From contig NZ_RQZG01000017.1 in assembly GCF_003859805.1 (NCBI RefSeq), positions 1 through 64,000 on the forward strand: a stretch of DNA of 64,000 nucleotides, written 5' to 3'. Below the pieces are notes generated by a model, which was given only the letters and a program-made list of their open reading frames with translations, ran no database searches and was not told where the DNA came from. Shown here piece by piece: positions 37,417-64,000 of this stretch. This DNA comes from Arachnia propionica. Its GTDB lineage: Bacteria; Actinomycetota; Actinomycetes; Propionibacteriales; Propionibacteriaceae. Each line of letters begins with the position of its first letter. The first letter of the stretch is position 1. Made by a program: the position numbers and the translations under genes.

Positions 37417-37462
37417 CCAACGGTCGAGGCCCCTGGGACGTCCCAGGGGCCTCGACCGTTGG
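37417..37462 (+). terminator. Strong terminator after icd
   Basis: A 22-bp perfect inverted repeat with almost no loop (37417-37438 and 37441-37462, core GGTCGAGGCCCCTGGGA) begins 30 bp after the icd stop codon. The remaining DNA to 37665 contains no visible gene and must hold the promoter of the glycosyltransferase operon. Confidence 0.8.
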
Positions 37463-37665
37463 CATCTGGTGCGGGCCACCCGGTGCACGACGGCCCCTCG
37501 CCATCTGGATGACACGCTTTCCATCGACGCGACAAGGGCATACGTCTTGAAACGCCCGCAACGTCCAAATGGATGACCCCGAGGCGGCAACAAGCCCTTG
37601 CCAAGCTGTCTAGATTCACCTCGTCGAAATCGGTTCGGCAGTGGATTCCCGGAGGGGGTGACCAG

Positions 37666-37968
37666 ATGCACCACGTTGTGTGCACGGTGATGTTCGTGGC
37701 CTCGGCGTTCGCCCTCACCCGGACCGAGCTCCACCTCCGCCACCGCCTGCGCAGCTTCCGGAAGGTGCAGCTGTTCTGCTACGCCAGCTCACACCTCGGT
37801 GCGGTGGCCAACATCTCCTGCCTGCTCCCGGCGGCACCGGAGCTACTGCTCCGGTGGGCCCCGGTCCTCAGCGCCATCTGCATCGTGGCGCAACTGGTGC
37901 TGCTGACCCTGGGATGGACCCGCCCCCGCCTGCCGATGCGGGCCCTCCCGATGGATGCACTCCGATGA
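37666..37968 (+). CDS. Small three-helix membrane protein, first gene of GT2/PIG-L/ATP-grasp operon
   Basis: This 100-residue protein has three predicted membrane helices (about 3-19, 35-53 and 65-84) with a basic cytoplasmic loop, LRHRLRSFRKVQ, between the first two. No known domain. Its layout and several residues match the N-terminal membrane domain of the PIG-L protein two genes downstream: a basic RxxxxxxRxxxxF loop, then AxxAN(I/L)(S/A)CL and a third helix ending in LT followed by a short charged tail. I infer that the two arose from one module. GGAGGGGG lies 6-8 nt before the ATG. The stop overlaps the next start as ATGA. Confidence 0.7.
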   Translation: MHHVVCTVMFVASAFALTRTELHLRHRLRSFRKVQLFCYASSHLGAVANISCLLPAAPELLLRWAPVLSAICIVAQLVLLTLGWTRPRLPMRALPMDALR

Positions 37969-39266
37969 GCCCGCTCATGACGGCACTCGCCGTCGTGGCA
38001 CTGCCCGGGCTGCTGCTCGGCCTCATCCACTGGGTGTGGTACCCGTTCGCCGTCCTCTTCGAGTTCCGACAGCACTCCCCCGGCGTGCTGTACCGAGGGG
38101 TCAGGGTCAGCGTCATCATCCCCGCCTACAACGAAGGCGTGGTGCTCCACGCCTCCGTGGCCTCCGTGCTCGATTCCGGATACCCGAACCTCCAGGTGGT
38201 CGTCGTCAACGACGGCTCCACCGACAACACCTGGGAGGTCATGCAGTCCTTCGCCCAGGACCCCCGGGTCGTGCTCATCGACAAACCCAACGGCGGCAAG
38301 GGATCCGCCCTCAACGCCGGCATCGAGGTCGCCGACGGCGAGGTGTTCCTGTTCGTCGACGCCGACGGCCTGTTCACCCGCACCACCATTCCCCGCCTGC
38401 TGGCCGGTTTCCGGCACCGGGGCGTCGGGGCGGTCTGCGGCAACGACCAACCGATCAACGTCACCGGTCCCCTGACCCGTCTGCTCGCCCTGATGACCCA
38501 CGTCGGCACCGGGCTGACCCGACGTGCCCTCGCCCTGCTCGGGATCCTGCCCATCGTCTCCGGCAACTCGGGGGCCTTCCTCGCCCACGTGGTGCGTGAG
38601 GTGGGCGGTTTCCGCACCGACACCCTCGGGGAGGACCTCGAACTGACGTGGCGCGTCCAGTTCGCCGGGTACGACGTCGAGTTCGCCCCACGTGCCCTCG
38701 TCCTGGCCGAGGTGCCCTCCACCCTGAAAGGCCTGTGGAAGCAACGGGTCCGGTGGCAGCGCGGCCTCATCCAGACCGCACGGTTCCACGCGCACCGGGC
38801 CCTGCGGCTGCCCCGCAGCCGTTTCGACTGGTACCTGCCGCTCAACCTGGCCTCCATGCTGGTGGCCCCGGTGCTGCAGCTCATCGCCGTCGTGCTGCTC
38901 GTCGCGGTCATCGCCACCGGCGAGCTCCAGATCACGTCCTGGTGGGCGGTGGTCCTCCTGCTCGGCCTCGAGGTCTCCCTCGCCGCAGCGGTGATCGCTC
39001 TGGTGCTGGACCGTGCCTGGCACAACATCCCCCTGCTCATCGTGCTCCCGCTGTGGCTCCCCCTCGGCCTGTTCCTCTCGGCCGCCACCGCACGCGCCAT
39101 CTGGGCGGAGTTCAGGGGCACGACGTCGAGCTGGAACAAGCTCGAACGCACCGGGGTCCGCAACCGCACCGCCAAGGAGGACCCCCTCGACTTCGAGGTC
39201 GGCGTCGAACCCCCACCACGGTCCGAAGTCCTCGCTGCCCCAACCACTCTCCCGCTCGCCCCCTGA
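37965..39266 (+). CDS. Processive family-2 glycosyltransferase
   Basis: This 433-residue membrane glycosyltransferase has the full set of motifs of processive beta-synthases (IcaA/PgaC, NodC, hyaluronan synthase). One N-terminal membrane helix (6-32) precedes the GT-A domain, with VNDGSTD (Asp83), the metal/UDP site FVDADG (Asp132, Asp134), the general base pair LGEDLELTW (Glu223-Asp224) and the acceptor-site Q-x-x-R-W as QRVRW (260-264). Three C-terminal helices follow, then a charged tail. It most likely polymerises or transfers a sugar, perhaps GlcNAc, across the membrane from a UDP donor. It is translationally coupled to the small membrane gene and precedes a PIG-L deacetylase gene, which favours an N-acetylated product. 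Confidence 0.88.
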   Translation: MSPLMTALAVVALPGLLLGLIHWVWYPFAVLFEFRQHSPGVLYRGVRVSVIIPAYNEGVVLHASVASVLDSGYPNLQVVVVNDGSTDNTWEVMQSFAQDPRVVLIDKPNGGKGSALNAGIEVADGEVFLFVDADGLFTRTTIPRLLAGFRHRGVGAVCGNDQPINVTGPLTRLLALMTHVGTGLTRRALALLGILPIVSGNSGAFLAHVVREVGGFRTDTLGEDLELTWRVQFAGYDVEFAPRALVLAEVPSTLKGLWKQRVRWQRGLIQTARFHAHRALRLPRSRFDWYLPLNLASMLVAPVLQLIAVVLLVAVIATGELQITSWWAVVLLLGLEVSLAAAVIALVLDRAWHNIPLLIVLPLWLPLGLFLSAATARAIWAEFRGTTSSWNKLERTGVRNRTAKEDPLDFEVGVEPPPRSEVLAAPTTLPLAP

Positions 39267-39278
39267 AAGGAGCACACC

Positions 39279-40184
39279 GTGCCGGACTCCTTCGTCCCCC
39301 TCGTGCTGATCTCCCTGCACACCCTGGCCGTGTTCCTCTACGCCCTGGCGAAGGTCAGCCTGAGCCGTCGCATCAGCCAGTACCGCCTGCTGTACCGGTT
39401 CGTCATCGTCTCGGCCGGTGTCATGATCCCCGCCAACCTGGCCTGCCTGTCCACCCCGCCGGGTGCCGTCCACACACTGATCCAGTCCTTCTCCATCGCC
39501 TCCCTGGCGGCCATCGCCGCCCTGACCTGGCACTTCCGGCACCCCTCCTGCCGCCAGGATCCGTCCCGGATCGTGCTGGCCATCGGTGCCCATCCGGACG
39601 ATCTCGAACTGGCCTGCTCCGGAACCCTGGCCCGGCTCGTCGACAACGGTCACCGGGTCCACGCCCTGGTCATGACCCACGGTGCCGTCGGCGGCGACGC
39701 GAGCATCCGCCCCGGTGAGGCGAGGAACGGCGCCCGGTTCCTGGGGCTGACCTCCTGCGAGCTCCACGACCTGCCCGACACCCACCTGGCGGAGAGCAGC
39801 AACGTGATGATCGGTCTCATCGAGACGGCCATCGCCCGACACCACCCGGACCTCATCCTCACGCACTCCGCCAACGACCAGCACCAGGACCACGTCGCGG
39901 TCCACTGGGCGACACGACGGGCCGCCCGCAACCATCCGGCGATCATCTGCTACGAGTCACCCTCGGCCACCCCGGCGTTCTGCCCCCAGGCCTACGTCGA
40001 CGTCTCCGGCTACCTGGACACCAAGCAGATGGCCGTCGAGCTGCACCGGGACCAGTCCGAGAAGCCCTACATGACCACCTCGGTGCTGCAGGGAGTCGCG
40101 ACGTTCCGTGGCCGCCAGGCCCGGATGGACGACGCCGAGGGCTTCGAGGTGATCCGGCTGCCACTGTTCGGGGGGATCCTGTGA
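39279..40184 (+). CDS. Membrane-anchored PIG-L family deacetylase
   Basis: This 301-residue protein has two parts. Residues 1-88 form three membrane helices, like the stand-alone protein at 37666. Residues 95-300 are a PIG-L/LmbE deacetylase: the zinc motif AHPDD at 104-108, THGAVGGDASIRPGEA, GARFLGL and the third zinc ligand in QDHVAVH (His205 or His209). Family members remove the acetyl group from GlcNAc in GPI anchors (PIG-L), mycothiol (MshB) or teicoplanin. A membrane-bound form fits deacetylation of a lipid-linked or membrane-extruded N-acetyl sugar made by the preceding glycosyltransferase. It is separated from that gene by 12 bp and overlaps the ATP-grasp gene by 4 bp. Confidence 0.88.
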   Translation: MPDSFVPLVLISLHTLAVFLYALAKVSLSRRISQYRLLYRFVIVSAGVMIPANLACLSTPPGAVHTLIQSFSIASLAAIAALTWHFRHPSCRQDPSRIVLAIGAHPDDLELACSGTLARLVDNGHRVHALVMTHGAVGGDASIRPGEARNGARFLGLTSCELHDLPDTHLAESSNVMIGLIETAIARHHPDLILTHSANDQHQDHVAVHWATRRAARNHPAIICYESPSATPAFCPQAYVDVSGYLDTKQMAVELHRDQSEKPYMTTSVLQGVATFRGRQARMDDAEGFEVIRLPLFGGIL

Positions 40185-41026
40185 GCCGCATCCTCGTCAC
40201 CGGTGCCTGCGGTCCGGCCGGCCGTTCCCTGCTCGACCAGTTGTCCACGCGGGGCCTCCCGGCTCTCGGCTGTGACATGGACCCGTCCCCCAGGACCGAT
40301 GGGATCACCGTCCTCAGGGCCCTGCCCGCCCGTGATCCCGATCACCTGACCGAGCTCGTGGAGCTCATGGCGACCCACCACGTCACCCTGCTGATCCCCA
40401 CCGTCCAGGAGGAACTTCCACTCGTCGCCGCGAGTCCCCCACCCGGCACACTGATCTCGCCCCTGGAAGGGATCGAGATCGCTCACGACAAGTGGCTGAC
40501 GGGGCAGCACCTCGCCGCCGCGGGGGTCCCGGTGCCGGCCACCGTCCGTGCCGAACAGGCCCTGGACTCCGACATCGCACCGCTCGGGCTCCCGGTGCTG
40601 AGCAAGCCGCGGGTCTCCCGGGGTGGCCGCGGTGTGGTGCTCCACGACGCGATCACCGACGTCCCCCGTCAGGAGGGGATACTGCTGAGCGAGTTCGCGC
40701 CCGGCACCGAGTACTGCGTCCAGGTGGTTCAAGGCATCGGCAACGACGTGTGCGTCGTGCTGGAGAAGACACAGCTCCGTTCAGGTCTGGTGGGCAACGC
40801 GGACGCGGTCCGTCGCGTCGAGGCACCCGATGTCGCCGAGGTGGCGACGGCGGCCGTCCGGGCGCTCGGGCTGGTGGGGCCGGCCGACCTGGACATCCGC
40901 CGTCGTGACGACGGCACGCCCCTGGTGATCGAGGTCAACGCCCGGTTCGGGGCGCAGAGCGCCCATGCCCCCGAGCTGCTGGAGACGGTGCTGGCCTGGC
41001 ACGCCGCCTCAGACCAGGACGGCTGA
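40181..41026 (+). CDS. ATP-grasp ligase (PylC/CarB-like)
   Basis: This 281-residue protein is an ATP-grasp enzyme. An N-terminal Rossmann-like pre-ATP-grasp part (ILVTGACGPAGRSLLDQL, 1-85) is followed by the two ATP-grasp subdomains: KPRVSRGGRGVVL as the nucleotide loop, LLSEFAPGTEYCVQVV, ADLDIRRRD and the metal site VIEVNARFG (Glu and Asn). Such enzymes activate a carboxylate as acyl-phosphate and join it to an amine, thiol or other nucleophile. Here the obvious acceptor is the free amine left by the PIG-L deacetylase. Which carboxylate is used cannot be told. Its last 18 bp overlap the convergent purM. Confidence 0.82.
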   Translation: MSRILVTGACGPAGRSLLDQLSTRGLPALGCDMDPSPRTDGITVLRALPARDPDHLTELVELMATHHVTLLIPTVQEELPLVAASPPPGTLISPLEGIEIAHDKWLTGQHLAAAGVPVPATVRAEQALDSDIAPLGLPVLSKPRVSRGGRGVVLHDAITDVPRQEGILLSEFAPGTEYCVQVVQGIGNDVCVVLEKTQLRSGLVGNADAVRRVEAPDVAEVATAAVRALGLVGPADLDIRRRDDGTPLVIEVNARFGAQSAHAPELLETVLAWHAASDQDG

Positions 41027-63538: not shown

Positions 63539-64000
63539 ATGTCACGCCATCCCAAGGGACCGCTCAGGCTGCTCCACGTCCATGCGCATCCCGACGACGA
63601 GTCCAGCAAAGGAGCCGCGACGACGGCGAAGTACGTGGCCGAGGGCGTCGAGGTGATGGTGGCGACCTGCACGGGTGGGGAACGCGGCGACGTGCTCAAC
63701 CCGGCTCTCGCCGACGACCCCCGGGTGCTGGCGGACCTGCCCGCGGTTCGTCGCGAGGAGATGGCCCGGGCTGCGGAGGTGCTCGGCATCCGGCACGTCT
63801 GGCTGGGCTTCGTCGACTCGGGCCTGCCCGAGGGAGACCCGCTGCCGCCCCTGCCGGAGGGCTGCTTCGCCGTCCAGGACGTGGCGACGGCGGCGGGACG
63901 GCTGGTGAAGGTGATGCGTGACTTCCGCCCACACGTCGTGACCACCTACGACGAGCGTGGCGGCTACCCGCACCCGGACCACGTGCAGTGCCATCGCATC
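63539..64000 (+). CDS. mca: Mycothiol S-conjugate amidase Mca (5' part)
   Basis: The first 154 codons of a PIG-L-family enzyme run off the right edge of the window. [20 protein letters not shown] holds the zinc motif AHPDDE, followed by [15 protein letters not shown] and [14 protein letters not shown], and [18 protein letters not shown] with the third zinc ligand. The ESSKGAAT and YPHPDH phrases separate Mca from its paralogue MshB. Mca cleaves mycothiol S-conjugates to mercapturic acids and glucosaminyl-inositol in detoxification, which shows that the organism makes mycothiol. CACAAT at 63526-63531 ends 7 nt before ATG 63539; an in-frame ATG at 63530 is less likely. It is divergent from greA, the usual neighbour. 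Confidence 0.92.

Follow-up and report, generated by a model that had tools for sequence, protein, structure and literature searches.

In a 64,000-nucleotide stretch of the Arachnia propionica genome (contig NZ_RQZG01000017.1, positions 1 to 64,000, here called the window), we found an operon encoding a small membrane protein (P0001), a glycosyltransferase of family 2 (GT2; P0002), a PIG-L deacetylase (P0003) and an ATP-grasp enzyme (P0004). Its three enzymes make up a module that is conserved in relatives. We read the operon, with a probability of roughly 0.5, as a unit for N-acyl exchange and glycan synthesis, whose product would be a surface-located or exported glycan of amide-substituted amino sugars. 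This reading builds on gene linkage, catalytic motifs, folds recognized by homology and the relatedness of P0001 to the membrane module of the deacetylases. In the literature searched, which covered few subscription papers, no described pathway with this set of enzymes was found, in agreement with a first-pass annotation made from the sequence of the window, and we regard the system as a variant of amino-sugar glycan synthesis that is conserved but not described in that literature.

The linkage of the three enzymes extends well beyond the window. Eleven loci outside the window clade (L034-L036, L047 and L072-L078), from Propionibacteriaceae, Actinotignum, Arthrobacter, Isoptericola, Gulosibacter, Collimonas and others, have the trio side by side in the order PIG-L > ATP-grasp > GT2. 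The genes overlap by 4 bp at six of the eleven PIG-L/ATP-grasp junctions and at seven of the eleven ATP-grasp/GT2 junctions, a count from which the Asanoa locus (L079) was left out owing to its broken frames. The window, L031 and L032 instead show the order P0001 > GT2 > PIG-L > ATP-grasp, which is probably shared by L033, a locus ending in a GT2-like tail just upstream of the PIG-L gene. An ATP-grasp tree of 27 rows places these four in one clade (97/98). Its nearest neighbors are L034 and L035 (85/86), L072 (85/89) joins after them, and these three loci have the common order. L035 lies within JHVD01000003.1 of Propionibacteriaceae bacterium P6A17, a member of the same genus as the window genome. 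Since these nearest neighbors in the tree hold the common order, the window order looks derived, and the permuted arrangement was seen in a single supported clade. Of the four genes grouped earlier, the three for the enzymes are kept together in other genomes and evidently belong together.

A further measure of linkage comes from 80 named loci, which were retrieved for their resemblance to the membrane-type deacetylase. Where the PIG-L gene has an N-terminal extension of at least 60 amino acids, a same-strand ATP-grasp gene lies no more than 1.5 kb away in 36 of 42 loci, as opposed to 1 of the 38 with unextended PIG-L (Fisher p 2.4e-15, to be read in the light of the loci being ranked by similarity to the query and not independent). 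Among fifteen further extended PIG-L loci, obtained by an order-level search, an ATP-grasp partner was present in the narrow stretch in one (L061). When the flanks were widened for the remaining 14 (13 of family f3 and one of the family of the window), ten proved to have genes for ATP-grasp, GT2 and a lipoprotein-like protein on the opposite strand, with 1.3-4.3 kb between the ATP-grasp and PIG-L genes, and four showed no partner genes. In L162, the PIG-L gene sits between the GT2 gene and the lipoprotein-like gene. The impression given by the 1.5-kb flanks, that receiver-type deacetylases of this order are without ATP-grasp partners, was thereby overturned. In the ATP-grasp tree, one branch unites the window and the membrane-module loci with three of the order-level loci with receiver-type deacetylases, while the other holds Microbacterium, Cellulomonas, Blastococcus, Legionella, Marinicella and others. 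A gene for a PHP hydrolase accompanies 19 loci (one duplicate locus dropped, and two being seeds of the profile).

All catalytic motifs named by the first-pass annotation were located. The glycosyltransferase P0002 matches the Pfam domain Glycos_transf_2 (1.5e-33) and has NDGST, DAD, GED and QRVRW at residues 82, 132, 222 and 260, respectively. Its best NCBIfam model is PgaC (TIGR03937), although at 181.2 bits it does not reach the PgaC/IcaA equivalog cut-off of 422.3, and it is 34% identical to E. coli PgaC over 230 columns. Hydrophobic segments span residues ~3-34 and ~298-373, with one peak at 188-206 within the catalytic domain. The enzyme had been called processive; the QRVRW motif is indeed present, but QxxRW alone is no proof of processivity, a similar motif occurring in ceramide-type GT21 enzymes, and P0002 also matches the GT21 model (48.4 bits, cut-off 21.7). 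The deacetylase P0003 matches PF02585 (6.5e-26), with AHPDD at residue 104 and QDHVAVH at 203, and a profile search gave diacetylchitobiose deacetylases and LmbE/BshB-type proteins as the closest solved relatives of its PIG-L domain. It is preceded by a membrane module with hydrophobic segments at residues 5-23, 41-59 and 64-82, as judged by hydropathy. The positive-inside rule, applied by eye, and the receiver-domain fusions of relatives suggest that the catalytic side is cytosolic. P0004 matches ATP-grasp_3 (1.7e-15), with KPR at residue 142 and EVNARFG at 251, and has the ATP-grasp fold and the conserved metal-site residues. With 2pn1, PylC and Ddl as its nearest folds, it is a probable carboxylate-amine ligase. 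Its match to NF009402, the PRK12767 "carbamoyl phosphate synthase-like" group, is below the cut-off (77.6 versus 218 bits), and no relatives were found in viral contigs. The fold matches support deacetylation combined with amide ligation, as proposed earlier, as the likeliest chemistry.

The fourth gene was found to be something other than the independent member of the set that it had been taken for. P0001 has no match in Pfam or NCBIfam, and its residues 3-84 align with the membrane module of the Actinotignum PIG-L protein (L072) at a local score of 130 (z 14.9, from 500 shuffles preserving the hydrophobic pattern). The corresponding modules of L034 and L035 gave z 8.5 and 8.0, the PIG-L protein of the window itself a weak z 4.0 (score reached by 2/500 shuffles), and that of L036 a non-significant z 1.8 (27/500). 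By sequence, P0001 is a free-standing copy of the deacetylase membrane module. In a search for it as a separate gene, which did not extend to the named loci, it was found solely in the window, L031 and L032. Together with the permuted gene order, P0001 looks like the scar of a tandem operon duplication. If a PIG-L > ATP-grasp > GT2 unit had been duplicated, and the first copy had then lost its PIG-L catalytic domain and ATP-grasp gene and the second copy its GT2 gene, the remainder would be precisely P0001 > GT2 > PIG-L > ATP-grasp; no intermediate of this presumed history was seen. P0001 may now serve to dock the synthase to its partner enzymes.

Relatives of the operon carry candidate partners at the cell surface. 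A tetratricopeptide repeat (TPR) protein with a long C-terminal part, which may be an outer-membrane barrel, is encoded near nine of the eleven Pseudomonadota loci holding both PIG-L and ATP-grasp genes, and a lipoprotein-like protein follows the GT2 in six membrane-type loci (L036, L075, L076, L077 and L167, and as a fusion in L078). These partners point to an exported glycan. The earlier statement that no export partner is present holds for the window operon, but its relatives have these candidates. A search for the lipoprotein-like partner in the window genome found none. The lipoprotein-like protein gave no match in Pfam, NCBIfam or, by sequence, the PDB, and its candidacy as a PgaB relative received no support from profile comparison. 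E. coli YaiO did not match the TPR outer-membrane-like proteins. In Collimonas antrihumi (L078:9698-13451), the GT2 is fused to a lipoprotein-type extracytoplasmic domain and followed by a TPR protein.

We propose the following scheme, in which the substrates, the acid, the sequence of steps and the polymeric nature of the product are what we infer. The membrane-anchored PIG-L enzyme would strip the N-acetyl group from a GlcNAc-type sugar on the cytosolic side; the ATP-grasp enzyme would convert a carboxylic acid, perhaps an amino acid, into its acyl phosphate and couple it to the freed amine; and the GT2 synthase would polymerize the remodeled sugar, or a carrier-bound form of it, and move it through the membrane. 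Because the deacetylase and the ligase should both be cytosolic, such a swap on a precursor, ahead of polymerization, is at least as likely as the editing of a finished chain. The first-pass annotation had placed chain synthesis before deacetylation and ligation, with the GT2 first producing a lipid-linked sugar or an N-acetylated chain for the other two enzymes to edit at the membrane. That the GT2 gene precedes the other two in the window, and that a membrane anchor would put the deacetylase beside the synthase, agrees with this sequence of events, but most relatives have PIG-L > ATP-grasp > GT2 and the window order looks derived. Furthermore, HAS- and BcsA-type GT2 synthases extrude the chain during synthesis, which would leave little for cytosolic enzymes to edit, and we consider the chain-first order doubtful and, as a whole, unlikely.

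Somewhat less unlikely is a glycolipid pathway, in which the GT2 would add GlcNAc to a membrane lipid, PIG-L would deacetylate it and the ATP-grasp enzyme would attach an amino acid or another acid. The product would be a charged aminoacyl-glucosaminyl lipid instead of a polymer. The membrane anchor of the deacetylase suits such a substrate, a membrane lipid also being what PIG-L deacetylates in GPI synthesis, and so do the GT21-type match of P0002 (its HpnI match, 28.6 bits, is far under the cut-off of 310) and the window genome's lack of a detectable lipoprotein-like partner. However, a lipid product is at odds with the TPR outer-membrane-like and lipoprotein-like proteins beside the module in relatives, with PgaC as the best NCBIfam model of the GT2, and with the replacement of the membrane module by a receiver domain on the deacetylases of the other branch. 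Quite improbable is that the ATP-grasp enzyme amidates a second sugar at its carboxylate, in the manner of the Campylobacter capsule, while the deacetylase merely yields a cationic, partly deacetylated polymer: the Cj1438 fusion of GT2 and ATP-grasp provides a precedent (PMC11800379), but none of the four ORFs resembles a uronic acid enzyme, there is only one GT2, and the pairing of ATP-grasp and deacetylase holds in both branches. We give very little credence to a pathway for a small thiol of the mycothiol or bacillithiol kind. It would account for the deacetylase-then-ligase chemistry and for BshB1 being the best NCBIfam match of P0003, but the match (80.9 bits) is below the cut-off of 182.5, a small soluble thiol needs no membrane GT2, and MshB and MshC are both found above cut-off elsewhere in the genome.

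Control of the N-acyl exchange module may operate through the deacetylase. A scan of 42 PIG-L proteins with a non-membrane extension (27 of the 32 such proteins in the 80-locus set, L037 and the 14 order-level loci) revealed a Response_reg domain in 37, and receiver-fused deacetylases occur among loci L080-L145 and L153-L166. In many relatives, the enzyme is thus probably under two-component control. In two Pseudomonadota loci (L080:9-3394 and L098:5173-8600), an H-NOX gene and a sensor-kinase gene, its kinase domains scanned in L080 alone, are divergent from the adjoining receiver-PIG-L gene, an arrangement that suggests nitric oxide control. A histidine-kinase-like gene, recognized by reading and not by domain search, directly follows the GT2 gene in L034 (64-2219), L035 (4247-5701) and L072 (11086-13204), in L034 and L072 together with a response-regulator-like gene. 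Tentatively, the module could represent a widespread, undescribed class of surface polysaccharides in which the N-acetyl group of the amino sugars is exchanged in the cytosol, for an amino acid or some other acid, before or during polymerization, switched by the receiver domain of the deacetylase and, in the two Pseudomonadota loci, placed beside a haem-NO sensor. Deacetylation followed by acylation is established chemistry for small thiols and antibiotics; here it appears to have become part of the operon of a glycan synthase, and this in at least two phyla. If so, there would be N-substituted amino-sugar polymers that routine composition analysis reads as plain glucosamine.

Features of the operon and its upstream gap, with positions in the window
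Feature	Position	Strand	Size or basis
P0001, membrane protein	37666-37968	+	100 aa
P0002, GT2 membrane glycosyltransferase, PgaC-like catalytic domain with QRVRW	37965-39266	+	433 aa
P0003, PIG-L deacetylase, whole ORF	39279-40184	+	301 aa
N-terminal membrane module of P0003, three hydrophobic segments	39279-39575	+	hydropathy, 7-orthologue alignment
PIG-L (LmbE-like) de-N-acetylase domain of P0003, AHPDD and QDH motifs	39576-40184	+	PF02585
P0004, ATP-grasp enzyme, probable carboxylate-amine ligase	40181-41026	+	281 aa
Perfect inverted repeat in the gap between idh and the operon	37417-37462	n/a	46-bp palindrome, 23-bp arms, no spacer

All four ORFs were confirmed at the positions and on the strand first proposed. 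Regarding the junctions, the ATGA overlap of 4 bp between P0001 and GT2 and the 12-bp gap between GT2 and PIG-L were as described, while the 4-bp overlap between PIG-L and ATP-grasp is GTGA, with a GTG start, and not ATGA. The window, L031 and L032 are flanked alike, by idh upstream and, downstream on the opposite strand, by purM and purF, and purM adjoins the operon in L033 too. As L031 and L032 come from two other genomes and preserve both the gene order and the flanks, the operon is not a chance arrangement. Between these three, dN/dS was 0.13-0.14 for GT2, 0.12-0.17 for PIG-L, 0.20-0.29 for ATP-grasp and 0.28-0.56 for the faster evolving P0001, all below 1 by value, without a formal test against 1. 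The inverted repeat upstream is possibly a terminator, although no T run follows it. Between it and P0001, there are two copies of CCANNTGGATGAC (37501-37513 and 37565-37577), and CCATCTGGATGAC (37501) and CCAAATGGATGAC (37565) lie inside islands conserved across the three genomes. A shared operator or regulon is not claimed for them, as the one-mismatch count in the window was reached by 20 of 100 shuffles. Among the other matches in the genome, of which seven stretches were read, the palindromic ones fall within coding sequence or between convergent genes. A further MshB/Mca-like PIG-L gene occupies 63572-64000 and continues past the end of the window to contig position 64405, scoring 193.7 bits against TIGR03445, under the cut-off of 224.35.

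Several known systems share parts of this plan. In mycothiol (MshA-MshB-MshC) and bacillithiol (BshA-BshB-BshC) synthesis, GlcNAc is deacetylated by a PIG-L enzyme and an acid is then coupled to the amine. There the coupling is performed by MshC or BshC, whereas the window operon has an ATP-grasp enzyme and a membrane GT2. The mycothiol logic invoked earlier does not carry over as an identity of the pathway: P0003 scores 20 bits against the MshB model (cut-off 224.35), and separate genes for MshB (at G000:C16) and MshC (at G000:C2, 624.4 bits) led us to reject mycothiol synthesis by the operon. PylC and 2pn1-type ATP-grasp proteins are 18-23% identical to P0004, and the reaction of PylC couples lysine and an ornithine. 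The Pga/Ica systems for poly-GlcNAc, like the window operon, combine a PgaC-like GT2 with deacetylation, and PgaA is a counterpart of the TPR outer-membrane-like protein in Pseudomonadota relatives. However, their deacetylase (PgaB/IcaB) is exported, while the sole deacetylase of the window operon is of the PIG-L type, and as known they are without an ATP-grasp ligase. A comparison of the deacetylase membrane module with E. coli PgaD by hhalign gave no support for a relationship (probability 0.4%). In Campylobacter jejuni, Cj1438 is a GT2 fused to a TupA-like ATP-grasp domain that amidates glucuronic acid of the capsule with serinol-P or ethanolamine-P (PMC11800379). As proposed for the window operon, a GT2 and an ATP-grasp ligase there decorate a surface glycan through an amide bond, but the available part of that source mentions no deacetylase (PMC11800379).

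Also among the nearest known systems is the E. coli row of genes yaiS, yaiP, an acetyltransferase gene (yaiX) and yaiO, which likewise pairs a PIG-L protein with a PgaC-like GT2. YaiS is 38.6% identical to P0003 over 166 aa and YaiP 34% to P0002 over 250 aa, although YaiS is a bare 185-aa PIG-L protein, unlike the extended P0003. The slot of the ATP-grasp gene is taken by the acetyltransferase, which could re-acylate the amine, and the outer-membrane protein YaiO follows; neither it nor an acetyltransferase is among the four proteins of the window operon. yaiP (L151, L175) was matched in 4812 of 5426 complete E. coli genomes. In K-12, yaiX is broken by IS2, and in the other strain viewed an intact acetyltransferase gene is annotated, along with an incomplete PIG-L gene. 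Among the papers that our literature search listed, there was no functional study of these genes. Judged by these similarities, the yai operon is a cousin of the module, alike in plan except for the acylating enzyme, and the N-acyl exchange proposed here would, if true, provide a functional hypothesis for yaiS-yaiP.

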